Assembly: GCA_019359695.1 (NCBI GenBank)
Contig: JAHHGV010000033.1
Location: 1-64,000, forward strand
Direction: 5' to 3'
DNA length: 64,000 nt
Origin: Brasilonema angustatum HA4187-MV1
Lineage (GTDB): Bacteria > Cyanobacteriota > Cyanobacteriia > Cyanobacteriales > Nostocaceae
Shown here piece after piece: positions 1,764-48,297 of this stretch. The translations under genes and the position numbers were made by a program. The notes beneath the pieces were generated by a model. The model made no database searches. It saw only the letters and a list, made by a program, of their open reading frames with translations, and was not told the DNA's origin. Numbering within the stretch: the stretch's first letter is position 1; the number at the start of each line of letters is the position of its first letter.

Positions 1764-1810
1764 CAATGTCTACCGTCGCTTGCGGGAAAACCAATTAGCA
1801 GGAACACCAA

Positions 1811-2197
1811 TCAATCCGTTGCAAAGCGCATCAACTTCCTTACATCATCGATTGGCAATCGTAACTCTTTGCTAATTGCTGCTTCCAATGCGCTAAGTTG
1901 TGTGACCGGAAATTCAAATTCTAGTTCTTTTAGGGCTTTGGAAGCTGTCTTGACTCTGACTCTAGAAACACCTTGATGCTTTTTGATTTGAACTGTGATT
2001 GATAGTACAAGTGTTGGGGACTGCTTTGCTGATAATGTCTCAACCTTCAACGGATTCGTTGATTGACGAGAGCGCAACAATATGCTATCAATCACAAATC
2101 CACTCCCCACCCAAAAAGTCAATCCAAGCAGTGGTAGGAGTAGCCAAAACTCTAATCCCAAAGAACGTAAAATTTTAAACCATCGGGATTGGAGCAT
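1811..2197 (-). CDS. Small single-pass membrane protein, unknown function
   Basis: A 128-residue protein with a hydrophobic segment at about residues 15-40 (LGLEFWLLLPLLGLTFWVGS) followed by a soluble domain rich in charged residues (VQIKKHQGVSRVRVKTASKA). The second half is probably cytoplasmic or periplasmic; orientation cannot be told. It is transcribed divergently from rppA, with only 72 bases between the two start codons, so a shared control region is likely. I do not recognise a named family. The length, codon use and clean frame argue for a real gene. A decayed coding fragment follows it downstream. Confidence 0.65.
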   Translation of the reverse strand: MLQSRWFKILRSLGLEFWLLLPLLGLTFWVGSGFVIDSILLRSRQSTNPLKVETLSAKQSPTLVLSITVQIKKHQGVSRVRVKTASKALKELEFEFPVTQLSALEAAISKELRLPIDDVRKLMRFATD

Positions 2198-2269
2198 AAA
2201 TTAACTAAGTTCACTTTACAGATATTACGCGCACTAGGATAAAGAAAAAACAACAGCAGCGATCACCCT

Positions 2270-2947: not shown

Positions 2948-2981
2948 GATGGGGTACCTCTTGTTTGACTCTTGACTAATT

Positions 2982-4265
2982 ATGTTTGTTCGTAGTCGTC
3001 GCAATTTGGCATACTTATTTACAATATCGATGGGGAGCATCCTCATTACATTTGCTGGTATAGCATATTACTTCGTTGTTCAACAGCAGCTTCAAGCTTT
3101 TGACGACAGACTTTATTCTGATAGCAAAGCTATTGCCAGAACTCCACTGTACAAGCTGTATAACAAACGAGCGCAGTTTGAGCGAAGAGATAATCCAATT
3201 TTTGGTGAGACACTACCACCAATTAATAATGACTTGGCGTATATTCGGTTGTACAAATTCAATGGGGAATTAGTTGATTCTACTGGTATGTCTGGTTCAA
3301 AAAAATTAACTGTTGCTCCTGGTTTTCAAACTATTCAAATCACTCAGAAGAATCGCAATGGAGTTTTTACTACCAAAGAATGGTTACGTGAACTAACCTT
3401 ACCTGTTATACAAGAAAATATGTTAATTGGGTATATTCAAGTTGCTGTTTCTCTGACTCCTGTGCGTGAAAACTTGAATCGGGCAAGGTTATTTTTGACA
3501 ATTGGTTTACCAGTAACTTTAGGCACGATAGGTATTACTGGTTGGTTTTTAGGGGGACTTGCAATGCAACCAACTCGTCGGGCATACGAACAACTACAAC
3601 GCTTCACTGCTGATGCTTCCCATGAGTTACGCGCTCCCGTGGCTGCTATTTTAAGTAATGCACAAGTGGCTTTGATGCCTCCACAGGATGAATTAGAGCA
3701 GCGTTTTCGTCTAGAAAATATTACGGAGATTGCTAAATCAATGAGCAATCTCATTAATAATCTGTTGTTTCTTGCTCGTCAGGATGGACCGTTAGATAAT
3801 GCAACATTGAAGAGTATAGACCTTGTTGGACTACTACAACCTATAGTCCAAGAGTATCAGCAACTAGCAGTTGCACAAAATCTCAATTTTACTTCTCACT
3901 TACCTGAGTCACCTGTTACCCTAAAAGCCGATTCAGATTTGTTAAAACAGGCGATTGTAAATTTACTTAGCAATGCTTTTAAGTACACCCTTGAGGATGG
4001 TACAGTAGCACTAAAACTCTTGATACAATCTCACAGAGCTATTATTCAGGTAGAAGATAATGGCATTGGCATTCCCGAAGAAGATTTACCCCATATCTTT
4101 GAACGGTTTTATCGCGTAGATACAGCGCGATCGCGTCAAACGGGTGGCTTTGGTTTAGGACTGGCGATCGCCCAACAAATTGTGCAGGCACACCGAGGAC
4201 AGATTATTGCCAAGAGTCTTTTTGGGCAAGGTTCAACCTTTCAAATTGAACTACCTCAAAAGTAG
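2982..4265 (+). CDS. rppB: Sensor histidine kinase RppB
   Basis: A 427-residue membrane histidine kinase. Transmembrane segment 1 is at about 10-33 and segment 2 at about 165-190, enclosing a periplasmic sensor loop of about 130 residues. The HisKA domain carries the phosphorylated His214 in [13 protein letters not shown], followed by an N box (LLSNAFKYT), a G1 box ([13 protein letters not shown]) and a G2 box ([10 protein letters not shown]). All catalytic motifs are intact. It lies just downstream of rppA, a standard operon. The loop has no obvious Cys or His metal cluster, so the signal cannot be read from sequence. Confidence 0.9.
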
Positions 4266-20179: not shown

Positions 20180-21559
20180 GTGGTATCTGCATCAAAATAT
20201 TGGCAACTTGTCAAGTTAGATTCGACTGGCTCGCGTCGGGTGGAAACAATGATTGCTGCTAAGAGCTATTTCCAAAACCAATTTCCTGGATGGACGAATA
20301 ACGTCCCTGATACAACGATTGTGCGCCAACTTTGGCAGCAAATGCGGCAGAATGAAGAAATGGCTGAGAGTTGTTTACGCTGCTATATCTCGCACCAAAT
20401 CAATCAAGCTTGTCTGGGTTTGGCAGTTAAGTTTGGCAGTCGCCACGGTTTTACTTATCAAGATTTATTGCCTTTTGTTTTAGATGATCAGGGGTTGCTC
20501 TCATCAAACTCGCCTGAAAGTGTTCCCTATCGTTCTCTGGCGATGACCATTTTGCAAAGTTTCGACCCAGTAAAGGGAACGCTCAACACATGGGTAACAC
20601 GTTATGTTCGGCAACATCCAGAACTAAAGCGGTTTTTGTTACAGCATGGTGTTTATATAATCAGCGATTGGGCATTGCTGAACGATACAACCTCGAAGCG
20701 ATTACAGCAAATTCTGGCAGAGGTGTATCAGTTAACACAAATTGAAATTCAGCAAAATTGTGAACTTTTACAAAGCTTTCATGCAGTCTATCGTGAAGAC
20801 CGCCTGCAACAGCGCATTACTGGGACGAAACAACCCTGTCAGCCACCAACGCCTCAGCAGTTAATTCGTATCGCTGATGATCTCAAAGTTCGCAGTATTC
20901 GCAGACTCACGCCTGAAGCAGTCTTGCGACAGTTAAATGCGATCGCATCCAAAATCCGGCAATCTCGGATTTCGGCACAAGGAGGAATGGTCAATGGCGT
21001 TTCTTTCGATCAAACAGAGATTCAACCGTTTGTAGATCGGGCAGAGGTCGTTCAAGATGATCAAGAAATAGTTGAATTTCTTAAATATTATCAAAATCAA
21101 TTTATTCAATGTTTAGATCAGGCGATTTCTCAAGTGATTGGCGATTGGATTTCTCAGCTGCAACGCAAACGTTCATCGGTAAAGCAATTATTTATCAATG
21201 CCCTACATCTTTTCCATTGCCAAGGTCAATCTATGAGTCAAATCGCGCCGCAAATTGGATTAAAAAAACAATATGAAGTGACTCGTTTATTAAAACTTAA
21301 CGATTTACGTGCTGATATCCGTCAGCGATTGCTCGTGATGTTGCGATCGCGCATTGTTGATTACGCCAAGATGTATACTGAGTCCGAACGTTTACAAAGC
21401 TTAGATCAACAGGTAGAAGTGATTCTAGATGAACAAATTACGGGCATCATCCAACAAGCAGAATCCGAGGCAAAAAATCCGGTTCGCAATCAATCCCTAC
21501 CCAGTCTCTTGGCACGTCGCATTTGTCGTTATCTCGATTCAAGGATTCCTACATCATGA
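20180..21559 (+). CDS. Sigma-70-like RNA polymerase factor of the DUF1822/CHASE2 island
   Basis: A 459-residue protein with a GTG start (an ATG at 20249 is an alternative). The central segment ILQSFDPVKGTLNTWVTRYV resembles sigma region 2 of the divergent cyanobacterial factors found at the head of DUF1822-CHASE2 loci. The C-terminal part (LFINALHLFHCQGQSMSQIA ... LKKQYEVTRLLKLNDLR) reads as a region-4-like helix-turn-helix. Its stop overlaps the next start (ATGA at 21556), so it is translationally coupled to the DUF1822 gene. Whether it binds core polymerase is inference; the conserved position argues for a dedicated regulator of this operon. Confidence 0.65.
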   Translation: MVSASKYWQLVKLDSTGSRRVETMIAAKSYFQNQFPGWTNNVPDTTIVRQLWQQMRQNEEMAESCLRCYISHQINQACLGLAVKFGSRHGFTYQDLLPFVLDDQGLLSSNSPESVPYRSLAMTILQSFDPVKGTLNTWVTRYVRQHPELKRFLLQHGVYIISDWALLNDTTSKRLQQILAEVYQLTQIEIQQNCELLQSFHAVYREDRLQQRITGTKQPCQPPTPQQLIRIADDLKVRSIRRLTPEAVLRQLNAIASKIRQSRISAQGGMVNGVSFDQTEIQPFVDRAEVVQDDQEIVEFLKYYQNQFIQCLDQAISQVIGDWISQLQRKRSSVKQLFINALHLFHCQGQSMSQIAPQIGLKKQYEVTRLLKLNDLRADIRQRLLVMLRSRIVDYAKMYTESERLQSLDQQVEVILDEQITGIIQQAESEAKNPVRNQSLPSLLARRICRYLDSRIPTS

Positions 21560-22851
21560 TTGATCAACCTGCATCAATGCCAGATTTGACAGATTTACTC
21601 GATTGGCGATCGCTCAATGATTCGCAAACCGAGCTATCATCAGACCAATTACAAACAGCTGCGCGTCTGAGTCAATCAATTCATTTGCCAGATCAACGCT
21701 GGCAAGTTTATCTAGCTGCGTTGGCTGTGTTGGGATTTGAGCAATGGCTGAGCGATCGCGCCCCAGATTTGAGAATAAATAGCACAGATGCCTCAATTTG
21801 GCAACCAGCATATGCAAATTTGATAGCGGCGGTGTGTAACGTTCAAGTTGATTCCTTCAAACTCTGTATCGTAGCTTCTAGCAATCTGGATGAAAACCAA
21901 GTCAGCTTCCCAAGTGCAGTTTTTGACATCCCTGATTTTGCGGCTCATTTCTATGTACCAATCCAGGTGGAGGAAGAGGAACAACAGGTTGCAGTCTCTG
22001 GTTTTTTAAACTACGAACAGTACTGTCGATATCAAGCAGCCGCATCACTTCAACTTGAACAAGATTGGACGTATACACTACCTCTAACCTGGTTTAATTC
22101 TGATCCCAACGCGCTGCTGCTGAATCTGCGTTGCTTAGAACCAGATGCGATCGTTCTACCCACAACTTCATCTGCACAACAGGAGAGTGATACAGTACTG
22201 CGGCAAAAACTGACAACACTACAATCTCAACTTGTAACTAAGCCCGTTTGGGAATTGCTGACAGTCGAAGAAGGTAAGACATTGTTGCAAAAGCCTGAAC
22301 TCGTTAACTGGGTGTACGAAGTTTCCGCTCCCCCGCGTTCTCAACCCCTGATCAACGTTGGTTTGTGGTTACGCAACCAGCTTGATACGGTGGCTGAGGA
22401 ATTGGGATGGATGCTTATGCCATCGCTAACATTGTCTGGGCTGCGATCATTGGAAGAAGACTTTTATAAGATTCGCACAGCTTTGGAACAGCAAGGCGTT
22501 CATATTCCTGCAACAGCGCGAGGCGCTTACCGCGACTTGCGTTGGGAACAGGGAAGTTTGCGACTCTACGCGGTGACGTGGGTAGTATCGCAAGAATTAG
22601 ATTCTCCGGAATGGATGTTACTGATTGCTTTAAGTCCACAACAGCCGACGCAGCTATCAATGCACCTCAAGCTGGAAATTAAAGATGAAACACAGCTACT
22701 CTTTGAACAGTCTCAGGAGAACACAAATCAGGATATACTCTATGCTCAAGTTATTGGTAATTGGGGCGAACGATTTTGGGTGACGGTGAGCGCTGATCAT
22801 GCTGTTTTTGAAATTCCACCTTTTGGTTTTGAGTTGGAAATAACGCCTTGA
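21556..22851 (+). CDS. DUF1822 family protein
   Basis: A 431-residue soluble protein, started at the ATG overlapping the upstream stop (ATGA). The N-terminal block (QRWQVYLAALAVLGFEQWLSD) and the middle block (YEQYCRYQAAASLQLEQDWT) are characteristic of DUF1822. The C-terminal half contains VGLWLRNQLDTVAEELGWML and a beta-rich end. No enzyme motif is visible. The family is restricted to cyanobacteria and lies between the sigma-like factor and the CHAT-CHASE2 protein, which suggests a structural or regulatory link between them. Confidence 0.9.
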   Translation: MIDQPASMPDLTDLLDWRSLNDSQTELSSDQLQTAARLSQSIHLPDQRWQVYLAALAVLGFEQWLSDRAPDLRINSTDASIWQPAYANLIAAVCNVQVDSFKLCIVASSNLDENQVSFPSAVFDIPDFAAHFYVPIQVEEEEQQVAVSGFLNYEQYCRYQAAASLQLEQDWTYTLPLTWFNSDPNALLLNLRCLEPDAIVLPTTSSAQQESDTVLRQKLTTLQSQLVTKPVWELLTVEEGKTLLQKPELVNWVYEVSAPPRSQPLINVGLWLRNQLDTVAEELGWMLMPSLTLSGLRSLEEDFYKIRTALEQQGVHIPATARGAYRDLRWEQGSLRLYAVTWVVSQELDSPEWMLLIALSPQQPTQLSMHLKLEIKDETQLLFEQSQENTNQDILYAQVIGNWGERFWVTVSADHAVFEIPPFGFELEITP

Positions 22852-22881
22852 ATTGCTCAACTACTAACAACTAAGTTCTAT

Positions 22882-25302
22882 ATGAAATTTAATTCCCATT
22901 TTCTTCACCTGAAAGTTCAAAAAGTTGAGAAAATTTGCTTGTTTGCGTTGTCTTGGGGACAAGGACAAAATCTAAGTGTGCAAATCAATTATCCAACTGT
23001 GTTATCTTCGCTTTATGAGGAATGGCGGCGGGCATATCTCAACTTTTATCAGTCGGAACAAATGCGGGGACGCGCGATTAGTGGTGGAATTGCAACTATA
23101 AAAGTGGACTGGCACGCGGAACTTGTTAAAGCGGAAACAAAGTTTATGTTTGAGTTTCATCGCTGGTTACGCAGTGCCGAACTGTACGAAATTCGCGCAC
23201 AGATTGCCAAACTAAGTCAAGAATTTGTCAAGGCGAATCCACAAACAACTGAGACTGTGCAACTTTTTCTCACCTGTGCACCGCTTGAGTTAGATCGTTT
23301 TCCTTGGGAAGCTTGGGAATTTGGCACAGAGTTTGCAACCACAGGAACAATTCGGATTATTCGCGCTCCTTTAAATATTGCCACAGAAAGCGGAAGCCAG
23401 TACACAAGACCACAACGGCGACGTGCGCGTATTCTGGCGATTTTGGGTGATGATACTGGGTTAAATTTTGAAGCAGATCGGCAGGCAGTGCGATCGCTTT
23501 CCCGCATTGCAGATATCCAGTTTGTTGGTTGGCAACCAAAGCAAACACCACAGCAAGCCATCCAACAAATTACTAAGGCAATAACAGACCAGCAAGGGTG
23601 GGATATACTATTTTTTGCCGGACACAGCAACGAAACTCAGATGACAGGGGGCGAGTTGGGAATTGCTCCTGGTGTGTCAATTTCTATCAGCGAAATCAAA
23701 CCACAATTGATAGCTGCAAAAAAACTCGGTCTACAGGTTGCTATTTTCAACTCCTGTAGTGGACTGAGTCTTGCAGATGCGTTGATTGATATTGGTTTTA
23801 GTCAAGTTGTAGTGATGCGCGAACCGATCCACAATTGTGTGGCGCAGGAATTTTTGGTACGATTTCTGCAAGGGTTGGCGAAACACTTGGATGTGTACGA
23901 GTCGATGATGGCGGCGCGTCAATTTCTGCGGATGGAAAAGAGTCATACTTATCCCTCTGCTTCTTTGGTGCCTTCGTTGTTTTGCTATCCAGGCTCTGCC
24001 TTATTCCGTATAAACCGAGCAAAATTGCCAAAAAAATTATATGATTTATTACCAAAACCGATTGAGGCGATCGCACTATGCACCAGTATTGTCCTCAGTT
24101 GCATTCCCCCCGTTGCAGGGCAACTATTGAACGGGCGCACATTCGTTCAGTCAATTTACCGCGACGCAACCGTTCAAGTCCCGTCTGAGGAAGATCCCCC
24201 AGTTGCACTCGTGGAGATTGATACTGAATCGATTTATCATGGTCGCATTTCTCAACTCAATCCGATTAATCGCAGCTATTTAGCAAAGTTAATCGAACGC
24301 CTACAAAAATTAAATGCTTCCGTCGTTGGGTTAGATGTGGTGCTTGATACACCGCAAAAAGACCCCCCATCTGGAGATAAAGATTTAGCAAAAGCCATAC
24401 AGCAAGCAGTTGACCAAAATACGTGGTTAATAATTGCTGGAATTTTGGAATCGAATCGTGAGTTGAGCATCAGTAAAGCGACTGCTATTGCAAGTCAAAA
24501 TTGGACAGTGCAAGGATATATTGATGTGGTTGATCCCCACTTTGTTGAAATCCCGCTTCCAGATCAAGATTGTCGCCAAGCTTGCCCAATGGCTTATTTA
24601 ATGTCACTTGTGCACACATCTCGCTCCTCAATCCTTGACTTACCAAGGCTCGATACAAGTAAGATCAGCTTACGCACCCAATTGCTGAGTGCAATTGAGC
24701 AGATAGCTCCCAAAATCCGCGATTTACCTCCTCCTTTAAACTGGTATCCGCCCTTTGGTTTACAACCTATAGTCGATTTCTCCCTTCCCCCTGATCGCGT
24801 TTATCAGCGAATTCCCGCTTGGAAATTGCTTGAAGATCCCGACACTAACAAATCTCCACTACTTTCGCAGGTTGTGCTGATTGCGGTGGGAAGCGACGAA
24901 CGCTTGGGGATCGCACCTGGACAAGCGGATCGCTTTGATGCACCTATGGCGATGAGATATTGGACGCAACAATCTCGGCTGACAGGGGGTGAATCTTTGG
25001 CGTACATGACTCACCATTTTCTCCGGCGACACTTTGTGATTCCTATCCCTGATGTCTGGGTGATTGGCGTTGCAGTCATCCTTGGTAAAATCACCGTATT
25101 ACTCCTCAAACGCCAGCAGTTTTTAATGAGTCCAACCCGTCGCTTACAAATTAGAGCTGCTGCGATAGGAGCAACAGCAGTTTATGGTGTGGTTGGGTTA
25201 CAGCTTTATATTTGGGCTTCGGTTTTGCTCCCCTGGCTTTTACCATCGTTAGTGTTTTTGGCTTACGTTTTACCTGCTACAAGGAGAGAGAGAGATGTTT
25301 AA
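22882..25302 (+). CDS. CHAT-CHASE2 fusion membrane protein
   Basis: An 806-residue protein. Residues 1-385 carry a CHAT peptidase-like domain: FFAGHSN with His248 and FNSCSG with Cys292. A transmembrane helix follows near 395-415. Residues 420-700 form a CHASE2 extracytoplasmic sensor domain (VALVEIDTESI ... VVGLDVVLDTP ... RDLPPPLNWYPPFG). Two to four C-terminal helices (about 710-800) complete the anchor. CHASE2 normally feeds kinases or cyclases; here the cytoplasmic output is a His-Cys peptidase domain. Its stop overlaps the DUF928 start by eight bases. The inferred role is membrane sensing that triggers proteolysis. Confidence 0.9.
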   Translation: MKFNSHFLHLKVQKVEKICLFALSWGQGQNLSVQINYPTVLSSLYEEWRRAYLNFYQSEQMRGRAISGGIATIKVDWHAELVKAETKFMFEFHRWLRSAELYEIRAQIAKLSQEFVKANPQTTETVQLFLTCAPLELDRFPWEAWEFGTEFATTGTIRIIRAPLNIATESGSQYTRPQRRRARILAILGDDTGLNFEADRQAVRSLSRIADIQFVGWQPKQTPQQAIQQITKAITDQQGWDILFFAGHSNETQMTGGELGIAPGVSISISEIKPQLIAAKKLGLQVAIFNSCSGLSLADALIDIGFSQVVVMREPIHNCVAQEFLVRFLQGLAKHLDVYESMMAARQFLRMEKSHTYPSASLVPSLFCYPGSALFRINRAKLPKKLYDLLPKPIEAIALCTSIVLSCIPPVAGQLLNGRTFVQSIYRDATVQVPSEEDPPVALVEIDTESIYHGRISQLNPINRSYLAKLIERLQKLNASVVGLDVVLDTPQKDPPSGDKDLAKAIQQAVDQNTWLIIAGILESNRELSISKATAIASQNWTVQGYIDVVDPHFVEIPLPDQDCRQACPMAYLMSLVHTSRSSILDLPRLDTSKISLRTQLLSAIEQIAPKIRDLPPPLNWYPPFGLQPIVDFSLPPDRVYQRIPAWKLLEDPDTNKSPLLSQVVLIAVGSDERLGIAPGQADRFDAPMAMRYWTQQSRLTGGESLAYMTHHFLRRHFVIPIPDVWVIGVAVILGKITVLLLKRQQFLMSPTRRLQIRAAAIGATAVYGVVGLQLYIWASVLLPWLLPSLVFLAYVLPATRRERDV

Positions 25303-26281
25303 TATTCAACAGGACTTACGCACTCAAAACCCGAAACCTCCTCGGAACCTCACCCTGCCCTGTCGGGCATCCCTCTCCTTAGCAAGGAGAGGGAAAGATT
25401 TTAGCGCAGCTAAAAGCGAGGGTGAGGTAAAAAGCGAGATCTGTGTACACGATAGCCTTAAAAACGAGAGAATCTTAAAAGCCCCCTTAAAAAGGGGGTT
25501 GGGGGATCTCTTCAGCGTAAGTCCGATTCAATTTAATCTTCAACACCGCAAGTTTTTGTTTATCTATGCAATTATCCCCTTATTCGTCAGTACCACTGCG
25601 ATCAGCAACGCCCAGACTGCCCCAGCTGCGAAATCTCCTCAACCGGTTGTCCAGCAAGGATTTACAGCTAGGCTTAGCGCATTTTGGCAGCGGCGTCCCC
25701 GTCATCGTTTAGGCGCACGCAGTGGTATTTGCGCCATTTCACCTGGTTTGCTGGAAACATACGTTATTTGGCGCGATCGCCCGTTGTTTCTCTGGCAAGG
25801 TAGAGCTGCTCAGATTACCGTGCGCGATCGCGAAACTCAAACCGTATTGTGGACACAATCTCTCAACCCCACAGATAAAAAAATCGCCTACAACGGGAAA
25901 GAACCTCTGCAACCAGGTAAACTTTATCAATGGCAACTGTTAGGAGCTGAGTCCTCAAGTTCTGATCGTAAGCAATGGACAACATTTCAGATTATGCCTG
26001 CAGGCGATCGCGATAAAATTCAAGCAGATTTGCAAACCTTAGAGCAGAAACTACGAGCAACGAAAGCTTCCCAAGAAGATATTGCAGTGATAAAAGCAGA
26101 TTACTTTACCAACTACAAAATTAAACAGGAGAATGATACAAACGAAGCTCCCAAAGCTTGGTCAGATGCTGTGCAAACCCTCTACGATGTTGAGAATCCG
26201 TCTCCGTCTTTTGTTGAGCAACGGCAAACATATGTCGCAAATTTGTGTACTCAGCAAACGACGACAACACAAGCAAATTAA
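25295..26281 (+). CDS. DUF928 family exported protein with a repeat inserted in its 5' coding part
   Basis: As written, a 328-residue protein whose first six residues (MFNIQQ) overlap the previous gene. Residues 7-75 are encoded by a repeat element (25311-25524). The native sequence resumes with IQFNLQHRKFLFIYAIIPLF, a signal or anchor segment ending near NAQTAPAAK. The DUF928 domain follows: RHRLGARSGICAISPG, YVIWRDRPLFLWQG, LQPGKLYQWQLLG and a helical end rich in Gln/Glu. A signal peptide placed 75 residues inside the chain may not work. An in-frame TTG at about 25500 could restore a short leader. The domain is probably periplasmic or outer-surface. Confidence 0.8.
   Translation: MFNIQQDLRTQNPKPPRNLTLPCRASLSLARRGKDFSAAKSEGEVKSEICVHDSLKNERILKAPLKRGLGDLFSVSPIQFNLQHRKFLFIYAIIPLFVSTTAISNAQTAPAAKSPQPVVQQGFTARLSAFWQRRPRHRLGARSGICAISPGLLETYVIWRDRPLFLWQGRAAQITVRDRETQTVLWTQSLNPTDKKIAYNGKEPLQPGKLYQWQLLGAESSSSDRKQWTTFQIMPAGDRDKIQADLQTLEQKLRATKASQEDIAVIKADYFTNYKIKQENDTNEAPKAWSDAVQTLYDVENPSPSFVEQRQTYVANLCTQQTTTTQAN
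25311..25524 (+). repeat. AGGACTTACGCAC repeat element (nested, in-frame in DUF928 gene)
   Basis: Ends AGGACTTACGCACT and GCGTAAGTCC are inverted. The same outer parts, including CCCGAAACCTC and GGGGGTTGGGGGATCTCTT, occur in the element at 46671-46780. Inside it a second repeat (25348-25427, ends CCTCACCCT and GGGTGAGG) is nested. Total length divided by three keeps the reading frame open, with no stop. Confidence 0.85.
25348..25427. repeat. CCTCACCC/GGGTGAGG repeat nested inside another repeat
   Basis: It contains CCCTCTCCTT, GGAGAGGGAAAGATTTTAGC and AAAAGCGAGGGTGAGG. Near-identical sequence abuts the CHAT gene stop at 48236-48297, and relatives lie at 40443-40485 and 47831-48100. Confidence 0.8.
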
Positions 26282-26290
26282 CCGGAGTAC

Positions 26291-26485
26291 GCCTAGGACT
26301 TACAGTCCTAGGCTATAAGCTAAGTCCGTTAAATTGACTTCTTGCATCACTTTCAATTAGCCCATTTCGATCGCCTCGGAATCAATTCCGAGGCTCACAG
26401 CCCAAGTCTACTAAAGTAGACTGAAAAGCTCATGCAGTCATCTTTAGATGACTTTTCCTATGAGCCTGGGATTTAAATCCCAGGT
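26291..26485. repeat. Cluster of five perfect hairpins with conserved feet and variable stems
   Basis: Hairpins of the form GCC-N7-loop-N7'-GGC lie at 26291-26313 and 26373-26394, and a GCC...GGT variant lies at 26464-26485. Hairpins of the form AGTC-N4-AA/TT-N4'-GACT lie at 26405-26422 and 26436-26453. Each stem differs, but both arms change together. This spacer lies between the DUF928 and exoprotein genes. Confidence 0.85.
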
Positions 26486-26724
26486 GGACGAGAATGCAAG
26501 CTTGAGAATCGTGCAAGATTTCAGTTGCTATGAGGTGATTGTTGAGGCATATTTCTTAAACGCATCCAACAATTCCACTGATGGTAAGATTGCTTTTGTT
26601 GCCCAAGCGCTCGAAGCTACGCTCTATAGTCACCCAACGACTGCTGCATATGTGGAGCATAGCCAGAAATAGTCATGAATATAGTTTCCAGCAACACACC
26701 TACCATTACTACATATAGTTCCTG

Positions 26725-29700
26725 ATGAATCAGAAACACACTTGGCTTCAATACTCCCTCCTATGCAGCCTTCTCCTGCTTACTAGCAAGGTTGCTCACG
26801 CTCAAATTACCCCAGATAACACCCTTGGGGCAGAAAGTTCGCGCCTCACACCCAACGTCCAAATCAAGGGTGCAGCAGCTGACAGCATCTCTGGCGGCGC
26901 TCAACGCGGAAGCAATCTTTTTCACAGTTTTAGTCAGTTCAATGTGGGTAATGGACAACGAGTATATTTTGTCAATCCTGTAGGAATACAAAATATTCTG
27001 ACACGGGTGACAGGTAAGGAAGCCTCAAATATCCTGGGGACGTTGGGCGTTAACGGTAGCGCGAATTTGTTTTTGCTTAATCCTAATGGGATTTTGTTTG
27101 GTCCCAATGCGCGATTGGATGTAGGCGGATCGTTTGTGGGGACGAGTGCGAGTGCTTTTCGCTTTGGGGAGCAGGGTGAGTTTAGTGCTACGAATCCGGA
27201 AGCGCCGCCGTTGTTGATAGTGAATCCTTCGGCGTTGTTTTTTAATCAACTTAATCCGGGGGCGATCGCCAACGTTTCTAATGCAACTGCAGGAACAACA
27301 CCCACTGGAGACAAAGCATTTGGGTTACGGGTTGCGGATGGACAAAACTTACTGTTGTTAGGTGGCACTGTAGAAAATGCTGGAGGATTGAATGCCTTTG
27401 GAGGACGAGTTGAAATTGGCGCAGTTGCAGGTGTCGGGACAGTTCAGCTGAATCTTGATAGTAGCTTGAGTTTTCCAAGCGATCTTCCACGAGCAGACGT
27501 ATTTCTTACTAATAGATCTCTGATTGATGTCGCTGCTGGTGATGGTGGAAGTGTAACCATTAACGCACGAAATCTGGCTATTTCACAAGGCAGTGGAGTA
27601 CAAGCGGGAATTCGCTCTGGGCTGGGAACTCCTGACAGTAAAGCAGGGGACATTGTCTTAAACACTTCAGAAGCGCTCCGAATCGAAGAAAGAAGTGTCG
27701 TTCAAAACAGCGTATTTCCAGAATTGTCTGGATTTTCTTCTGGAACAGGTAACAGTGGAGATATTCGTATTACAGCAGGATCGCTATCTATGCTGGATCG
27801 TTCTCAACTAAGTGCAAGCACATTCGGGCAAGGCAATGCAGGGAGTATAATCATTCAAGCAAGGGATCGCGTTTCCTTGGATAATAATGCTCGGCTGACA
27901 GCCAATACTTCTGCAAAGGGAAATGCTGGAAGCATCATAATTCAAGCAGGTAACCGCGTTTCCTTAGATAATGATGCATTTATTAGTAGTCTGGTTACTG
28001 ACAAAGGCGTTGGTAACGGTGGTGATATCCGCATCTCTACAGGTTCCCTTACAATCGCTGGTGCTGCTCAACTGGATAGTAGCACCTTCGGTCAAGGCAA
28101 TGCGGGCGATATAATTATTGATGCTCGCGACACTGTTTTATTTAGCGGGGTTAAAGGTAATTTAGCCAGTGGTATCTTAACCACTGTAGAAAGACAAGGA
28201 AATGGTAATGGTGGCGATATTCGTATAAGTGCTGACTCAGTAATAATTACGGATGGAGCAGATTTAAGTACTTACACTACAAAAAAAGGTAACGCAGGAA
28301 ATATTGATATTGAAGCACGTAATCAAGTAACCTTATCTAATCGTTCTAGCTTGTCAAGCAATACATTTGCACAGGGGAGTGCAGGAAATATCTCAATTGA
28401 TGTTGGCAACCAAGTGAACCTTGACAATATTTCCTATATATCGAGTGTAGTAGGAGAAAACGCGAGAGGTAATGGTGGGACAATCAGCATTAAAACCGGA
28501 TCTTTATCTATGACTGCTTCCCAGTTACAAACTAGTACTTTTGGACGGGGAGATGCAGGGGATGTAATAATCAATGCCCTTGGTGATATATCCCTATCAG
28601 GATTTGTGCTTCAAGAGGGGTTGCCAGTTAGTAGTGCTATTTTTAGTGCAGTTGAAAATACTGGCATTGGAAATGCCGGAGATATTCGCATCAACTCTAA
28701 AACTTTTTCAATGGCAGATAATGCCACACTAAAAGCTAGTACACAAGGGCAAGGTAATTCAGGCAATATTTTTATCAATGCGAGCGATCGCGTTTCGTTG
28801 GATAGCAGGGCAATTATCTCGAATATTGTGGGAAATGTCCTTAATCCTGGACAGTTCGGCGATGGTAAAGGTGGAACTATCGGCATTGATACTGGTTCGC
28901 TATTGATGATAAATGGTGCCCAACTCCAAGCGAGTACTTTTGGACGAGGGGATGCAGGCGATATTATCATCAATGCTCGCGACAGTTTTCTTGCTTCTGG
29001 GTTTGGACAATTTGAAGATTTGACACGTCCCACAGCTGCTTACAGTATTTCTGCTGATAACAGTAACGGTAATGGCGGCAACATTCGCGTTAATACTGGT
29101 TCGCTATTTGTTGAAAATGGGGCACGATTCAGTGTTTCCACATCTGGTGAAGGTAGGGCTGGAAATATTGCTATTGATGCCCGTGATGCTGTTGTTGTAG
29201 ATGGAGTTAGTAAAATTGGATATTTGAGTCAATTGTCTACAGCAACAGATGACGATGCAAAGGGAGTAGGGGGAACGATAACTGTTAATACAAATTCTTT
29301 TCGCGTTAGTAATGGCGGGTTGGTAACTGCCCAAACAACTTCTGCTTTTCAAGGTGGGGATGTGACGATTAACGCAAATAATTTTGCAGCTATCCAAGGT
29401 GGACGAATTATTACAACAGCGACTAACCAAGGACAAGCTGGTAGCATTACCCTCAACGCTGATAGTATTAACCTCTCAGGCAGAAATCAAAGAAGCGCTA
29501 GCGGACTATTTGCCAACACGACCTCAACAGCTTCCGGTCAAGGTGGCAATATCCAAGTGAATGTTAGGCAATTAAATGTGAGCGATTACGCCCAAATCTC
29601 TGTCAATAGTCAAGGCAGTGCAATTGCAGGTGATATTAACATTAACGCCAACACGGTACGACTGAGCGATCGCGCTAACATTGTCGCTGAAACAGCATCT

Positions 29701-30396
29701 CAAAATGGTGGCAACATCAGCATTAAGAACGCAAATCTACTTTTATTACGTCGAAATAGCCTGATTTCTGCCACTGCAGCACAAGGCGGTAACGGTGGTA
29801 ACATCACAATGAATGCTCAATTCATCGTCGCAGTTCCCAAAGAAAACAGTGACATATTTGCCAACGCCTTTCAAGGACGCGGCGGCAACATCACCATCAA
29901 CACTCAAGGACTGTTCGGCATCGTTCGGGCTTCCTTCCCCACCCCACAAAGCGACATCACCGCCAGTTCAGAACTCGGTGTCCAAGGACAAATCTTCATT
30001 ACCCAGCCAGAAGTCGAACGCACCTCTGGACTGATCGAATTACCCACGCAAGTTGTTGACGCCACTACCCAAATTGCCCAAATCTGCCCCAGAAGCCCCA
30101 ATGCAAAACCTTTAGGCGAATTTATCATCACCGGACGCGGTAGTTTACAACCAAATCCTCTAGAACCTTTGGCAGGTACACCTAACTTGAGTCCGTTGGC
30201 AACTTTGGACTCACAAAACTCTGCTAACGTACCGCAAACATCCCCATCAATAGCCGTAACGCCCACTGCGCCTGCAATTGTTGAAGCGCAAGGCTGGGTA
30301 AAAGATCGCGATGGCAACATTACATTAGTTGCTTTTGCGCCTCAAGCGACGCCGTCTAGTCGCCCTGCAGCAACGGTATGTCCTGTCTCTAAATAA
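26725..30396 (+). CDS. Two-partner-secretion (filamentous hemagglutinin-type) exoprotein, S-layer family
   Basis: A 1223-residue secreted protein. The signal peptide ends near VAHA-QITPD. The TPS domain (about 28-160) carries FVNPVGIQNILTRVTG and LNPNGILFGPNARLDVGGSF, the signature of TpsA exoproteins. Then come about 900 residues of beta-helix repeats: GNGGDIRI, LxxSTFGQGNAGDIIIxARD and similar. The C-terminal module holds ICPRSPNAKPLGEFIITGRG and VEAQGWVKDRDGNITLVAF, typical of cyanobacterial members. No TpsB/FhaC transporter is in this window, so the partner must be elsewhere. It is probably a surface filament or adhesin. The 3' end overlaps the opposite-strand antitoxin gene by eight bases. 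Confidence 0.93.
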   Translation: MNQKHTWLQYSLLCSLLLLTSKVAHAQITPDNTLGAESSRLTPNVQIKGAAADSISGGAQRGSNLFHSFSQFNVGNGQRVYFVNPVGIQNILTRVTGKEASNILGTLGVNGSANLFLLNPNGILFGPNARLDVGGSFVGTSASAFRFGEQGEFSATNPEAPPLLIVNPSALFFNQLNPGAIANVSNATAGTTPTGDKAFGLRVADGQNLLLLGGTVENAGGLNAFGGRVEIGAVAGVGTVQLNLDSSLSFPSDLPRADVFLTNRSLIDVAAGDGGSVTINARNLAISQGSGVQAGIRSGLGTPDSKAGDIVLNTSEALRIEERSVVQNSVFPELSGFSSGTGNSGDIRITAGSLSMLDRSQLSASTFGQGNAGSIIIQARDRVSLDNNARLTANTSAKGNAGSIIIQAGNRVSLDNDAFISSLVTDKGVGNGGDIRISTGSLTIAGAAQLDSSTFGQGNAGDIIIDARDTVLFSGVKGNLASGILTTVERQGNGNGGDIRISADSVIITDGADLSTYTTKKGNAGNIDIEARNQVTLSNRSSLSSNTFAQGSAGNISIDVGNQVNLDNISYISSVVGENARGNGGTISIKTGSLSMTASQLQTSTFGRGDAGDVIINALGDISLSGFVLQEGLPVSSAIFSAVENTGIGNAGDIRINSKTFSMADNATLKASTQGQGNSGNIFINASDRVSLDSRAIISNIVGNVLNPGQFGDGKGGTIGIDTGSLLMINGAQLQASTFGRGDAGDIIINARDSFLASGFGQFEDLTRPTAAYSISADNSNGNGGNIRVNTGSLFVENGARFSVSTSGEGRAGNIAIDARDAVVVDGVSKIGYLSQLSTATDDDAKGVGGTITVNTNSFRVSNGGLVTAQTTSAFQGGDVTINANNFAAIQGGRIITTATNQGQAGSITLNADSINLSGRNQRSASGLFANTTSTASGQGGNIQVNVRQLNVSDYAQISVNSQGSAIAGDININANTVRLSDRANIVAETASQNGGNISIKNANLLLLRRNSLISATAAQGGNGGNITMNAQFIVAVPKENSDIFANAFQGRGGNITINTQGLFGIVRASFPTPQSDITASSELGVQGQIFITQPEVERTSGLIELPTQVVDATTQIAQICPRSPNAKPLGEFIITGRGSLQPNPLEPLAGTPNLSPLATLDSQNSANVPQTSPSIAVTPTAPAIVEAQGWVKDRDGNITLVAFAPQATPSSRPAATVCPVSK

Positions 30397-30793
30397 CAGT
30401 AAATAAGCTCGGCTCAACATGAAAAAATTCTCCCAGCTTTCGCGCTTGTTCTGGAGTTATCTTTTGTTGTCCATCTAAAATATCAGCAATCAAATTTTCT
30501 GCTCCTAAAATCACCTGCAAATCTTCTCTAGTTTTGTCAGATTGTTCTAAAAGGAACAAGAGCATAGAGGGAGGATTCATCTGCTCATCAGGCTGATAAT
30601 ATTCTTGTTCAAATTTTTCAATTAAAGTAATTAATAACTGATATAGTTCATTTTCTTCAGGAGTACGTTCCCGGTGCATTAAATTTTCTACAATGGCTAA
30701 AGCTTGTTTATTTTCTGCTTCAGTCCTGATAATTTTAGGAATATAAGTAATTAATAATTCTTTATATTTCTCGGAATTAAAAGTAAGGGTCAT
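30389..30793 (-). CDS. HigA-like antitoxin (HTH)
   Basis: A 134-residue protein, started at the ATG at 30793 (MTLTFNSEKYKELLITYIPK). The N-terminal half is an acidic helical region; the C-terminal half (LLEQSDKTREDLQVILGAEN, then DILDGQQKITPEQARKLGEFF) is a helix-turn-helix of the HigA/XRE type. The start overlaps the toxin gene by 17 bases, the normal HigBA layout with the toxin first. It should neutralise the toxin and repress the operon promoter. Its 3' end overlaps the exoprotein stop. Confidence 0.88.
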   Translation of the reverse strand: MTLTFNSEKYKELLITYIPKIIRTEAENKQALAIVENLMHRERTPEENELYQLLITLIEKFEQEYYQPDEQMNPPSMLLFLLEQSDKTREDLQVILGAENLIADILDGQQKITPEQARKLGEFFHVEPSLFTVI

Positions 30794-31076
30794 TTTTCCA
30801 TTCTTCCTTATCGTATTCTGCATGAGTGAGGATATATTTAATATAAATTAATTGCCCTTCATAATCTATGCTCACGATCAATCGGTATTTATTCCCTTTT
30901 ATATTGAAAACCGTAAAATTACCGACAGCTTCAGCTTTAGGAAAAACTTTTTGTACTTCGACTAAATTTGACCATTTAGCTTTACTACAAAGTTTATACC
31001 AGTTGCTAAGGGCTTCCTGACAATCTGCATGAATTTCTGCATATTCTCTTAAGGTTTTAAAACTGATGATGTGCAT
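30777..31076 (-). CDS. HigB-family mRNA interferase toxin
   Basis: A 99-residue protein starting MHIISFKTLREYAEIHADCQ, the standard HigB opening; GGAG lies just ahead of this ATG, so I prefer it to a TTG nine bases earlier. The core FNIKGNKYRLIVSIDYEGQL followed by IYIKYILTHAEYDKEEW carries the RelE-fold strands and the His and Tyr of the RNase site. It cleaves ribosome-associated mRNA when free of antitoxin. The pair sits on the strand opposite the island genes, between the exoprotein and the TPR-CHAT gene. Confidence 0.88.
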   Translation of the reverse strand: MHIISFKTLREYAEIHADCQEALSNWYKLCSKAKWSNLVEVQKVFPKAEAVGNFTVFNIKGNKYRLIVSIDYEGQLIYIKYILTHAEYDKEEWKNDPYF

Positions 31077-31229
31077 CTTCTCCAAGAAAATCTAATCAAT
31101 ATATAAATCTCTTTTTCTTTATAGCTTCAAAGAGAAATCCAGCAACTGGTTATTAATGGTTGGGTATCAGAAGTGGGCAAGAGCGTGTCCATCCAATGAG
31201 ACAATAATTAGCGATGAGGAGTGCTTCCT

Positions 31230-33968
31230 ATGAAATCTACTAAACGACGCTATAAGAAATTTATTCGTTTTGTTATCCCAATGGTGATAACTTGCTTATT
31301 GTGTATTACATCACCTATACTTGCTCAAACTCCAGTAACTTCCACGTTGATAGCCCAAAGCCAATCTGGATTAACTCTCGAACAGCAGGCGCGATCGCGC
31401 TATAGCGCCAATCAATTTACAGAGGCAGCAACGCTTTTTCAACAAGCCGCCCTTGCTTATAAAGCTGCTGGAAACCCCATCCGTCAAGCTCTCAGTCTTA
31501 GCAATTTATCGCTTTGCTATCAACAACTGGGACAGTGGAATGATGCTAGTAAAGCGATCGCCGACAGTCTTGCACTTTTAGAAGCAACTATACCAAATAC
31601 CTCAGAGAAATCACTGGCGCTGGCGCAAGTCCTCGACATCCAAGGCGGGTTACTCCTGGCACGTGGACAAACCGAAGCCGCGCTGAAATCCTGGGAACGC
31701 GCCACACTTGTTTACACTCAGCTAGGCAAGCCTGACAAGGCACTGATCAGCCAAGTTAACCAGGCACAAGCTTTACAAAACTTAGGATTATATCGACGGG
31801 CGATCGCCTTACTCCAAACTGCCTTAAAGTTACCGCAGCGTTCGACGACGAATACTGAAACAATAACCAACGCTGTTCAACTCAAAACTCTAGAAAGTCA
31901 ACTGCAAGGAATTTCTGCCTCCCCGGAAACTGCAACCGCGCTTCGTACTTTAGGAGATTCGCTGCGGGTGACTGGTAATTTGACTCAAGCACGCCTCGTT
32001 TTAGAGCGTAGTCTGGCGATGCTCCAGCAGGGAGCCGCCCAAAGGGCGATCGCCACCAAGTTGCAACTATCCGACATCATCACATTAACTCAACTCAGCC
32101 TCGGTAACACTGCCCGTGCTCAACTCAGCCTGGATAAAACTGACGAAACTCCAATTGATCCCCAAGCTGCCCAAGCTGCCTTGAAGTTCTATCAACAAGC
32201 AGCTTCTACGGTTTCTCCTCATTTACGGGTACAAGCACAAGTCAATCAATTCAGTTTACTCGTCGATAGCAATCAACAGTCTGCCGCTCAAACTTTCCTG
32301 CCACAGGTTCAACAACAAATCGAGGCATTACCTCCTAGTCGTACGGCAATTGAGGCACGGGTGAATCTTGCCCAGTCGATGATGCGGATGGAAAGTCAAA
32401 AAAAAGGAACATCTTCGTTGCTTGAAGCTCTTCTGACAAAGGCGGTACAACAAGCCAAAGATTTAGGAGATTCACACACCCTTGCCTACGCGCTGGGTAG
32501 CCTAGGCAATGTTTACGAAAAAATGCAGCAGTGGAGTCAGGCAGAAAAATTAACCTCACAAGCACTCCAGTTAGCGCAACAAAGTAACGCAGATGATAGC
32601 ACTTATCTTTGGCAGTGGCAGTTGGGACGAGTGCTCAAGGCTCAAGGGAAAAACACAGGTGCGATCGCAGCTTATAAAGAAGCAGTCGCCACAATCAAAT
32701 CTCTGCGAACAGATTTAGCGGCGGCGAGTCCAGATTTACAGTTTTCTTTCCGCTATGCTGTTGAGCCAATTCACCGTCAACTCGTCGGACTCTTGGTGAA
32801 CTCGAATAAACCCGATGACTTGAAGGTGGCGCGGGATGTTATTGAAGCATTACAACTAGTCGAACTCGATAATTTCTTCCGGGAAGCATGTCTGAATGGA
32901 AATCCAGCACTGATTGATCAAGTGGATCAACGTGCAGCTGTGATTTACCCAATCCTTTTAGAAGACCAGCTTGCCATCATCACAAGTTTACCGCAATCCG
33001 CGAGCCAAAAGTCAACAAAGGAATCCCACAACTTACGCTACAAAAAAACCGATGTCAGCAGCAAAGAGGTGGAAAATCTCGTATCGACGCTACGCGGCGA
33101 TTTGCAGCAAAACACAACCGGAGATTTGGCACTGCCGGAACTCCAAAAATTATATAATTGGCTTATCCGTCCGGTAGCCGCAGAACTTGCCGCGAGCAAA
33201 GTAGAAACCTTGGTTTTTGTTTTAGATGGTGCTTTGCGAAATATTCCGATGGCGGCGCTGCACGATGGTCAAAAGTTCCTTGTAGAACAATATAGTATTG
33301 CTTTGACACCTGGATTGCAACTTTTGTCGCCGCGATCGCTCAAACAAGAACAACTAGGTGCATTGGTTGCTGGACTTAATGCCGCACGTCCTCCAGCGTT
33401 TCCGTCACTACCTTATGTCGAGACTGAGGTAAATAAAATTAAATCCGAGATTCCAACCCAAATCCTGTTTAACCAAAAGTTTACAAATACCGCCTTTCAA
33501 AATAGGGTATCTGCTGTTTCGTCACCGATTGTTCATTTAGCAACACACGGTCAATTTGGCTCTACAGCAGATGATACTTTTATTCTTACTTGGGATGGCA
33601 AAATCAAAGTCAATCAACTCAGTAGCGTTCTCAAAACAGTCGAATTATCGCGGAAGAATTCGCTTGAACTCCTTGTGCTGAGTGCATGTGAAACAGCAGC
33701 GGGCGATACTCGTTCGGCGTTAGGATTAGCGGGGGTTGCAGTGCGTTCCGGCGCACGCAGTACCGTAGCAACATTGTGGCGCGTCAACGATGAAGCTTCA
33801 GCAACGCTCATCGGTCAATTTTATGATCAATTGGCGCACATTAGTAAAACAGGTATCTCAAAGGCAGAAGCCCTGCGTCGTGCCCAACTTGCAATTCTTA
33901 AAGATCGCAACTATCGACAACAACCCTATTACTGGGCGGCGTATGTGCTGATTGGTAACTGGACGTGA
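31230..33968 (+). CDS. TPR-CHAT protein, exported
   Basis: A 912-residue protein. The ATG at 31230 is chosen for the GAGGAG at 31216. The signal peptide runs to about SPILAQTPV. Tetratricopeptide repeats cover about 40-540 (ARSRYSANQFTEAATLFQQA, then NLSLCYQQLGQWNDASKAIA and others). The CHAT domain covers about 590-912: HLATHGQFGS with His773, LSACETAAGD with Cys820, then TVATLWRVNDEASATLI and the closing YYWAAYVLIGNW. The dyad is intact. It is likely a periplasmic peptidase whose TPRs select or gate the substrate. As the last member of the island, its plausible substrates are the exoprotein or DUF928 protein, which is inference. Confidence 0.9.
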   Translation: MKSTKRRYKKFIRFVIPMVITCLLCITSPILAQTPVTSTLIAQSQSGLTLEQQARSRYSANQFTEAATLFQQAALAYKAAGNPIRQALSLSNLSLCYQQLGQWNDASKAIADSLALLEATIPNTSEKSLALAQVLDIQGGLLLARGQTEAALKSWERATLVYTQLGKPDKALISQVNQAQALQNLGLYRRAIALLQTALKLPQRSTTNTETITNAVQLKTLESQLQGISASPETATALRTLGDSLRVTGNLTQARLVLERSLAMLQQGAAQRAIATKLQLSDIITLTQLSLGNTARAQLSLDKTDETPIDPQAAQAALKFYQQAASTVSPHLRVQAQVNQFSLLVDSNQQSAAQTFLPQVQQQIEALPPSRTAIEARVNLAQSMMRMESQKKGTSSLLEALLTKAVQQAKDLGDSHTLAYALGSLGNVYEKMQQWSQAEKLTSQALQLAQQSNADDSTYLWQWQLGRVLKAQGKNTGAIAAYKEAVATIKSLRTDLAAASPDLQFSFRYAVEPIHRQLVGLLVNSNKPDDLKVARDVIEALQLVELDNFFREACLNGNPALIDQVDQRAAVIYPILLEDQLAIITSLPQSASQKSTKESHNLRYKKTDVSSKEVENLVSTLRGDLQQNTTGDLALPELQKLYNWLIRPVAAELAASKVETLVFVLDGALRNIPMAALHDGQKFLVEQYSIALTPGLQLLSPRSLKQEQLGALVAGLNAARPPAFPSLPYVETEVNKIKSEIPTQILFNQKFTNTAFQNRVSAVSSPIVHLATHGQFGSTADDTFILTWDGKIKVNQLSSVLKTVELSRKNSLELLVLSACETAAGDTRSALGLAGVAVRSGARSTVATLWRVNDEASATLIGQFYDQLAHISKTGISKAEALRRAQLAILKDRNYRQQPYYWAAYVLIGNWT

Positions 33969-46462: not shown

Positions 46463-46790
46463 AGGGTGTAGGGGTGTAAGGGTATAGGGGTGTAAGGGTG
46501 TAAGGGTGTAGGGAAGAAGTAGAATGGTAGGTTGGGTAAAGCGTAAGCGAAACCCAACAGACGTTTGATATTGTTGGGTTTCACTCCGTTCAACCCAACC
46601 TACGACTTCTTTTAGAAGTCAATAATCTTGTTGTTCACAAATGATTTAGACTGCTATATCACAGAAATACAGGACTTACGCACTGAAAACCCGAAACCTC
46701 GATCCCCCCTAGCTTCAAAAGGGGGGAATCTTAAAAGCCCCCTTTTTAAGGGGGTTGGGGGATCTCTTGTGCGTAAGTCTTAAAATATCT
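46463..46790. repeat. Repeat-filled spacer: GGGTGTA array, GTAGGTTGGG hairpin, AGGACTTACGCAC element
   Basis: GGGTGTA array at 46463-46512. A 77-bp inverted repeat at 46528-46604 has ends GTAGGTTGGG / CCCAACCTAC and inner arms GAAACCCAACA / TGTTGGGTTTC. An element at 46671-46780 shares both ends and the inner GGGGGTTGGGGGATCTCTT with the one inside the DUF928 gene. No gene. Confidence 0.85.
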
Positions 46791-47776: not shown

Positions 47777-48297
47777 TATTGTTGTGTTGGTTTGATAGTT
47801 TTTGTATGTCGTCTCTTCCAAGCGAAGAAACCTCACCCGCCTTCGGCACCCTCTCCTTCAAGGAGAGGGTTTAGAGAGTCTTTCTCCCTCTCCTTTATAA
47901 GCAGAGGGCTGGGGTGAGGTATCTCGGTGTCGTTTCTAACCATAGAGCTGGGGTATTGTTGTGTTGGTAGTTTTTGTATATCGTCTGTTTCCCAGGCGAA
48001 GAAACCTCACCCGCCTACGGCACCCTCTCCTTCAAGGAGAGGGTTTAGAGAGCTTTTTCTTTCTCCCTCTCCTTTATAAGCAGAGGGCTGGGGTGAGGTA
48101 TCTCGGTGTCGTTTCTAACCATAGAGCTGGGGTATTGTTGTGTTGGTAGTTTTTGTATATCCTCTGTTCCCTGGCGGAGAAACCTCACCCGCCTTCGGCA
48201 CCCTCTCCTTATAAAGGAGAGGGTTTAGAGAGTCTTTCTCCCTCTCCTTGAAGGAGAGGGAAAGATTTTAGCGTAGCTAAAAGCGAGGGTGAGGTTT
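47777..48297. repeat. Three tandem ~178-bp units filling the CHAT-V8 protease spacer
   Basis: Units begin TATTGTTGTGTTGG at 47777, 47954 and 48133. Each holds CCTCACCCGCC, CCCTCTCCTT-GGAGAGGGTTTAG and GGCTGGGGTGAGG parts. The array starts seven bases from the protease start codon and runs up to the CHAT stop codon, so it forms the entire leader of the protease transcript. Confidence 0.9.

Follow-up and report, generated by a model that had tools for sequence, protein, structure and literature searches.

Positions 20180 to 33968 of a 64,000-nucleotide stretch of Brasilonema angustatum HA4187-MV1 DNA (contig JAHHGV010000033.1; referred to as the window) hold a group of genes that raises the question of whether they function together and, if so, in what. 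An initial annotation had read them as a sensing and export system. We found that the first four, SIG, DUF1822, CHAT-CHASE2, and a DUF928-like gene, form a cassette conserved among cyanobacteria rather than a local island. The best explanation for this cassette may be a trans-envelope sigma switch gated by CHAT proteases, a reading to which we assign a probability of roughly 0.47. The four genes are as follows.

20180-21559, plus strand: SIG, a divergent sigma-70-like protein of 459 amino acids, GTG start
21556-22851, plus strand: DUF1822 protein of 431 amino acids, ATG at 21556 (PF08852, 6e-49)
22882-25302, plus strand: CHAT-CHASE2 membrane protein of 806 amino acids (PF12770, 2e-9; PF05226, 7e-21)
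25295-26281, plus strand: DUF928-like protein with a signal-like hydrophobic segment at about residues 87-105

The SIG and DUF1822 genes are joined by an ATGA overlap (21556-21559), and the CHAT-CHASE2 and DUF928-like genes overlap by 8 bases (25295-25302), both read in the sequence. DUF1822 and CHAT-CHASE2 are separated by 30 bp. A search of named genomes with a CHAT-CHASE2 profile gave 245 loci, and the best 80, all cyanobacterial by title, were kept. The DUF928-like gene directly followed CHAT-CHASE2 in 67 of these 80, and the 8-base overlap was kept in 40 of the 68 loci with a DUF928-like gene downstream. Among the 47 loci with enough sequence, DUF1822 lay within 10 kb upstream of CHAT-CHASE2 in 37 and SIG in 33. 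All loci with SIG upstream of CHAT-CHASE2 had DUF1822 there too (50/50), and a further 8 had DUF1822 without SIG. Of 194 genomes of the phylum, 15 had a strong SIG match (E < 1e-100, a cutoff set after the list was seen), and exactly the same 15 had a strong CHAT-CHASE2 match (E < 1e-90); the hypergeometric value of 1e-22, like the Fisher and binomial values below, ignores phylogeny and, because the genomes are related, overstates independence. Eight further genomes carried weaker SIG matches (3.7e-23 to 9.1e-83). The two genes were within 10 kb of each other in 12 of the 15 genomes.

The same arrangement was seen around more distant genes. Ten distant CHAT-CHASE2 paralogues in nine loci each had a DUF1822-type gene before and a gene in the DUF928 position after, and in 5 of the 10 a sigma-like gene preceded DUF1822. 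Other SIG-DUF1822 pairs adjoined CHAT-nSTAND1 proteins, one with WD40 repeats. In the genome of the window, which has 62 CHAT matches, 9 of 10 DUF1822 genes had a same-strand CHAT gene within about 5 kb (1e-12, for uniform placement), and of 6 strong DUF928 genes, 5 had at least one of the 14 strong CHAT matches within 5 kb (7e-9), the sixth being 7 kb away. Synteny well beyond close relatives supports the sensing cassette that the initial annotation had put forward, in which a membrane CHAT-CHASE2 protein is paired with a dedicated sigma-like factor.

The CHAT-CHASE2 protein of the window has a CHAT domain with His248 and Cys292, a CHASE2 domain at residues 427 to 734, and hydrophobic segments at about residues 394-412 and, toward the C terminus, 724-742 and 765-783. 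His248 and Cys292 were invariant in 11 orthologues, and the His/Cys motif was present in all 92 family members of at least 600 amino acids. The first 115 residues aligned with the N terminus of the common CHAT-CHASE2 paralogues, which we take to be EACC2, at a probability of 94.2. A sequence search of the PDB with the CHAT-CHASE2 profile gave no result. The window also encodes two more CHAT proteins, at 48298-51447 (a TPR-CHAT protein of 1049 amino acids with a signal-like N terminus) and at 411-1457 (348 amino acids).

The fourth gene had been labeled DUF928. The window copy had no Pfam DUF928 (PF06051) match even at E ≤ 10, but 5 of 9 aligned orthologues matched weakly (best, 5.5e-6), and the orthologue profile aligned with a set around a Pfam-positive DUF928 member at probabilities of 94.0 to 95.1. 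A signal-like N terminus was found in 68 of 80 DUF928-like proteins; here and throughout, crude scans served to call secretion signals and membrane stretches.

The nature of SIG was approached through profile comparisons (SIG profile, 76 clean sequences; comparison sigma factors from the genome, six of group 1/2 type and five of extracytoplasmic function [ECF] type, sorted by length). SIG aligned with a family of 400 amino acids that precedes other DUF1822 genes (hhalign probability, 97.9; E, 4.9e-13; 270 columns). That family matched the NCBIfam sigma model TIGR02937 at 5e-30 and 2e-27, had homologues that 4 of 5 plasmid records annotate as sigma-70, and aligned with the ECF sigma factors of the genome at a probability of 96.9. 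Unrelated controls did not exceed 1.3. A comparison of SIG with a short sigma-like family gave no result (hhalign probability, 19 to 38). Of the 11 best Foldseek matches of the AlphaFold2 model of SIG (predicted local distance difference test [pLDDT], 76.7), 10 came from RNA polymerase initiation complexes: six chains bear the name sigma-S or SigA, and four (chain F) are presumably sigma factors as well. We treat SIG as a divergent, unproven sigma-70 relative on the strength of these indirect profile links. The "dedicated sigma-like factor" of the initial annotation keeps its link to a sigma family in the same genetic slot but not a direct sigma match, of which Pfam and NCBIfam gave none.

It is also conceivable that SIG is a sigma-derived DNA-binding or scaffold protein with DUF1822 as its coactivator. 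Hidden Markov models recognize neither sigma region 2 nor sigma region 4 in SIG, and 16 of the 18 plasmid records that carry it label it hypothetical. However, the alignment of its profile with a genuine sigma family in the same genetic slot and the preponderance of initiation complex chains among the fold matches make this explanation improbable. An upstream element of SIG in Nostocales was found in 15 of 77 upstream regions and in 11 of 1540 random windows, which may merely reflect close kinship. At positions 1514-3814 of one locus (L088), from a low-coverage metagenome-assembled genome, the C-terminal part of SIG and DUF1822 form a single ORF (open reading frame) of 766 amino acids, perhaps a real fusion and perhaps a frameshift.

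The DUF1822 protein of the window has no signal-like N terminus, nor do 89 of 90 DUF1822 sequences. Its AlphaFold2 model (pLDDT, 87.6) has alpha/beta, helical, and beta-sandwich parts. Three Foldseek matches fell below 0.001, two entries of PDIP38/POLDIP2 and the ApaG domain of FBXO3, and the remaining matches shown were mainly other beta-sandwich proteins.

Smaller genomes added a second protease and a fused protein. The protease is represented in the window by the following gene.

31221-33968, plus strand: TPR-CHAT protein of 915 amino acids (PF12770, 8.8e-62, plus TPR families), hydrophobic at residues 17-35

Secreted-looking TPR-CHAT proteins recurred near the cassette in named and small genomes, as the initial annotation would lead one to expect. 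In the named genomes a secreted-type CHAT gene lay within 9 kb downstream of CHAT-CHASE2 in 16 of 48 loci and upstream in 12 of 47. The small-genome set comprised 101 genomes (1.0 to 3.9 Mb) of one family in the same class. SIG was found in 9 of these and CHAT in 32, and all 9 SIG genomes had CHAT (1.3e-5). A CHAT gene was within 10 kb of SIG in 9/9, and in four genomes (G136, G246, G265, and G303) it was the sole CHAT match. Pieces of SIG at contig edges were also present in G222 and G234. The catalytic His and Cys residues of TPR-CHAT aligned in 27/27 small-genome proteins and in that of the window, and a simple His/Cys pattern was found in 50 of 61 proteins of a wider set.

A search of 400 genomes with the N-terminal domain of DUF1822 matched 35 genomes, and all 35 loci were read. 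Fourteen encoded full-length fusions of DUF1822 with a DUF928-like domain, two (G509 and G600) were partial, and 19 encoded only the N-terminal domain; loci L209 and L210 were counted neither among the 14 fused nor among the 19 unfused loci, and L193 and L220 lie on contigs of 4.1 and 3.5 kb. SIG was directly upstream in 14/14 fused loci, CHAT-CHASE2 was present in 0/14, and TPR-CHAT was present in 13/14. In the unfused loci, CHAT-CHASE2 was present in 19/19, a separate DUF928-like gene in 13/19, and TPR-CHAT in 12/19, ten of those divergent from SIG. Thus, the fusion and CHAT-CHASE2 were mutually exclusive in the loci read (Fisher value, 1.2e-9).

The fusion consists of a DUF1822 N-terminal domain, a hydrophobic stretch beginning at residues 183 to 191, and a C-terminal domain related to the DUF928-like proteins. 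The N-terminal domain aligned with DUF1822 at a probability of 97.3. The C-terminal domain aligned with the separate DUF928-like protein of small genomes at 99.9 (E, 5.5e-31) and with the CHAT-CHASE2-linked DUF928-like set of larger genomes at 84.8 alone and 95.9 pooled; unrelated controls did not exceed 0.4. An uncharged stretch of 16 to 20 residues, defined as a run of at least 16 residues with a mean hydropathy of at least 1.5, separated the two domains in 14/14 fused proteins, and such a stretch was present in 4 of 88 unfused DUF1822 proteins (90, with two fused ones removed). The DUF928-like gene is tied to CHAT-CHASE2 and, via the fusion, to DUF1822.

Because the fusion joins its two domains across a hydrophobic stretch and directly follows the sigma-like gene, we propose a membrane-spanning anti-sigma arrangement. 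By layout, the fused relatives would fit a transmembrane anti-sigma factor, with a sigma partner, a hydrophobic stretch, and a presumed periplasmic domain; the DUF1822 of the window is separate. We further infer that CHAT-CHASE2 carries the signal between the DUF928-like protein and DUF1822, because the fusion is absent where CHAT-CHASE2 is present. In the proposed switch, SIG would be made together with DUF1822, which would act as its inhibitor and hold it inactive in the cytoplasm, and the DUF928-like domain would be the periplasmic sensor. In small genomes a single fused protein would make the transmembrane step beside a secreted-looking TPR-CHAT protease. In larger genomes, including that of the window, the domains are separate and CHAT-CHASE2 would carry the signal through the membrane: its CHASE2 domain, probably with the DUF928-like protein, would sense the outside, and its inner CHAT domain, once activated, would cleave DUF1822 (or itself) and free SIG. 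TPR-CHAT would be the outer protease. The freed SIG would transcribe targets that perhaps include the operon, TPR-CHAT, and TpsA-type surface proteins, which are candidates by adjacency only. Tentatively, and at somewhat less than even odds, DUF1822 may be a new sigma-restraining family, with the fused form of small genomes a one-pass membrane receptor that carries a DUF928-like sensor and is activated by secreted TPR-CHAT, and with CHAT-CHASE2 having taken over the membrane step in larger genomes; several cyanobacterial orders would then possess a sigma pathway gated by caspase-fold proteases outside CRISPR.

Several observations weigh against this switch. SIG was below the cutoff of every sigma model in Pfam and NCBIfam, its direct alignment with ECF sigma factors (probability, 37.8) and group 1/2 sigma factors (3.5) was weak, and its Foldseek matches were not significant (the first nine had E values between 0.017 and 0.16, and no match was below 0.001). 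The DUF1822 model resembled no known anti-sigma fold among the Foldseek matches shown. Both SIG and DUF1822 were missing upstream in 15 of the 67 loci with at least 3.5 kb of upstream sequence, SIG and CHAT-CHASE2 were on different contigs in 3 of the 15 genomes with both, and three SIG homologues away from contig ends (L131, L143, and L149) had no DUF1822 beside them. The partial loci L209 and L210 have the DUF1822 domain and SIG upstream but no recognized DUF928 part, CHAT-CHASE2, or TPR-CHAT, and four unfused loci (L221 to L224) had no TPR-CHAT in the stretch read. In the wider TPR-CHAT set, the simple His/Cys pattern was missing from 11 of 61 proteins, and a hydrophobic N terminus likewise from 11 of 61. 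Two further findings lower the odds slightly. The fused C-terminal domain did not align directly with the set around Pfam DUF928 (probability, 0.1 to 0.2), and plain hydropathy was unspecific: a threshold of at least 1.6 was reached by 11 of 14 fused proteins and by 25 of 90 others (two of these 90 being fused), with no clean separation.

A dispersed element, GTTC-N14/15-TGATTCC, is clustered around the SIG locus of small genomes (L139, L140, L180 to L183, and L201 to L208). A looser form, GTTC-N13..18-GATTCC, occurred 74 times in 293 kb of loci and 0 to 3 times in shuffled sequence. In 10 SIG-bearing genomes, 57 of 82 genome-wide matches were no more than about 25 kb from SIG, and the 36 matches in 10 genomes lacking a SIG match were scattered, with no cluster. 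Among 63 copies, 18 were within 200 nucleotides before a same-strand start (including those of SIG and TPR-CHAT), 34 were just past opposite-strand stops, and 11 were neither. The element is a candidate promoter element or gene-cassette boundary.

The remaining features of the island are as follows.

25311-25535, no strand assigned: stretch holding the repeat that lies in frame toward the 5' end of the DUF928-like gene, with partial blastn copies elsewhere
26725-30396, plus strand: TpsA-like exoprotein of 1223 amino acids with a two-partner secretion (TPS) domain (PF05860, 4.7e-50; TIGR01901, 2.5e-27)
30389-30823, minus strand: HigA-like antitoxin candidate, adjoining HigB, no Pfam match
30777-31085, minus strand: HigB toxin of a toxin-antitoxin pair (PF09907, 1.4e-32)

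Six plus-strand ORFs are present in the ORF list of the window where the annotation had placed them, and both overlaps are real, but the run of six same-strand genes in 13.8 kb is broken by the minus-strand HigB/HigA-like pair. Its family labels fared similarly: Pfam backs DUF1822, CHAT plus CHASE2, TPS, and TPR plus CHAT, but neither sigma nor DUF928 for the window copies. With HigBA on the opposite strand and TpsA optional, one fixed operon of six genes was rejected. A scan for promoters and terminators found no more than in shuffled sequence. In the closest relative, the match was confined to the last 47 residues of HigB.

The export interpretation holds that TPR-CHAT and DUF928 process or quality-control the TpsA exoprotein while the sigma-like factor sets expression. 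TpsA and TPR-CHAT were close in nine loci (49 to 768 bp apart in eight, including gaps of merely 49 and 88 bp in two relatives, L056 and L075, and 1.7 kb in another). Four of the 80 named loci (L051, L065, L075, and L078) showed the six-gene order in full; L056 and L064 had DUF1822 through TPR-CHAT, and in L059 and L095 a TPR-CHAT relative was visible only as its start at the locus end. However, of the 54 loci that extend far enough, only 15 had a TpsA start within 5 kb downstream of CHAT-CHASE2, whereas the association of the DUF928-like gene and TPR-CHAT with the cassette did not depend on TpsA. No small-genome locus was found by way of TpsA, which was not sought there, and no TpsB transporter was recognized among the 18 window ORFs scanned with Pfam, the other ORFs not being scanned. 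Export or quality control is therefore the least likely of the explanations considered, and processing of TpsA by TPR-CHAT is doubtful.

A short interspersed repeat seems to have inserted in frame into the DUF928-like gene; the roughly 75 codons concerned lie early in the gene, ahead of the signal-like segment of the protein, and are missing from the 7 other orthologues aligned. Among the loci fetched, its full-length form in this gene was confined to this genome and its 97%-identical relative; blastn found partial copies at 46671-46779 and 48239-48295 of the window and in two other loci (L169 and L043).

How much of this was known before? EACC2-caspase systems were the subject of an eLife paper from 2021, reportedly by Kaur, Iyer, Burroughs, and Aravind. 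In its available portions, PMC8195603 (eLife 2021) describes EACC2-caspase proteins with variable C termini that include CHASE2, finds an ECF sigma factor and DUF1822 in most neighborhoods without TRADD-N, and proposes activation by autopeptidase activity followed by sigma-driven transcription. Those systems share with the cassette a caspase-like domain, CHASE2 with membrane helices, and a DUF1822 neighbor, and probably also the constant N-terminal domain and the sigma neighbor. The core of what had been annotated as an undescribed system (ECF sigma factor, DUF1822, and EACC2-caspase, with CHASE2 variants) had thus already been described. There are differences. DUF928, hemagglutinin, and two-partner are absent from the main text of PMC8195603; the sigma-like gene of the window belongs to a more divergent family than the ECF sigma factor; and DUF1822 is called a TPR protein in the available portions of that paper, an assignment that we rejected on the AlphaFold2 model described above. 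As far as the available text of PMC8195603 goes, what the present analysis adds is the DUF928-like gene, TPR-CHAT, and the fusion.

That paper, in the same portions, also explicitly proposes a counter-invader role for EACC2-caspase neighborhoods. On this explanation the CHAT protein would sense a threat and be activated by autoproteolysis, and the sigma factor would drive a defense or programmed-death response. The cassette is patchy (15 of 194 genomes), and SIG homologues are present on 18 cyanobacterial plasmid records, 12 of them conjugative or mobilizable. Two plasmid regions were examined (AP018320.1 and NZ_CP063787.1); by annotation and position, they contain SIG, a gene in the DUF1822 position, a CHASE2 protein, and then a small gene, with C14-caspase, S8-peptidase, and TPR or CHAT neighbors. 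Yet for TPR-CHAT, PADLOC returned nothing beyond a TPR match and a weak match to BovA, no toxic effector domain was recognized in the cassette, and the secreted-looking parts and the DUF1822-DUF928-like fusion suit envelope signaling better than an intracellular suicide effector. We consider a defense role fairly unlikely, and it would be compatible with the envelope sigma switch if the signal were a phage or predator.

In envelope signaling, the RseA-DegS-sigmaE pathway is built from domain families different from those of the cassette. The fused form would resemble it in layout, with a sigma partner, a hydrophobic stretch, a presumed periplasmic domain, and a secreted-looking protease. The pathway is mentioned in the available text of PMC10028731, which reports that in type III-E CRISPR the CHAT protease Csx29 cleaves Csx30, relieving CASP-sigma. 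That locus combines a CHAT protease with a sigma factor and its cleavable inhibitor, and the logic proposed for the cassette is copied from it by analogy. In the cassette, by comparison, neither Cas7-11 nor CRISPR RNA was seen, the proteases look membrane-bound or secreted, and cleavage is only proposed. The TPR-CHAT protein of the window has a signal-like N terminus, compared with the TPR-CHAT protein of Craspase, which is bound to Cas7-11 and CRISPR RNA. PADLOC found no III-E component among five proteins, the rest of the genome not being searched for Cas7-11.

Parts of the arrangement have other precedents. The available text of PMC3501461 (PLoS One 2012) describes a Trichodesmium metacaspase-CHASE2 protein with a cytoplasmic caspase-like domain and an extracellular CHASE2 domain flanked by membrane helices; the topology is alike, but it is described as a single protein, with no mention there of the cassette. 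The marine Synechococcus island Syn_GI122 (PMC7522525, Front Microbiol 2020, available portions) is alike in its secreted CHAT proteins and surface proteins, but "sigma factor" does not occur in the text. The available part of PMC5587647 (Sci Rep 2017) notes a CHASE2 sensor and a DUF928 gene together in one cyanobacterial cluster. No description of the DUF1822-DUF928-like fusion was found in the literature covered, which excludes most subscription journals and preprints. What is new here is the DUF928-like gene directly after CHAT-CHASE2, the recurrent secreted-looking TPR-CHAT, and the fusion.

To our knowledge, few substrates of CHAT proteases are known. The cassette offers concrete substrate candidates, DUF1822 and the fused protein, together with a readout, SIG-dependent transcription. 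The fused form cuts the system to about three genes (SIG, the fused regulator, and TPR-CHAT), which makes it testable. If the envelope sigma switch is correct, CHAT-gated transcription would reach past CRISPR into general signaling.

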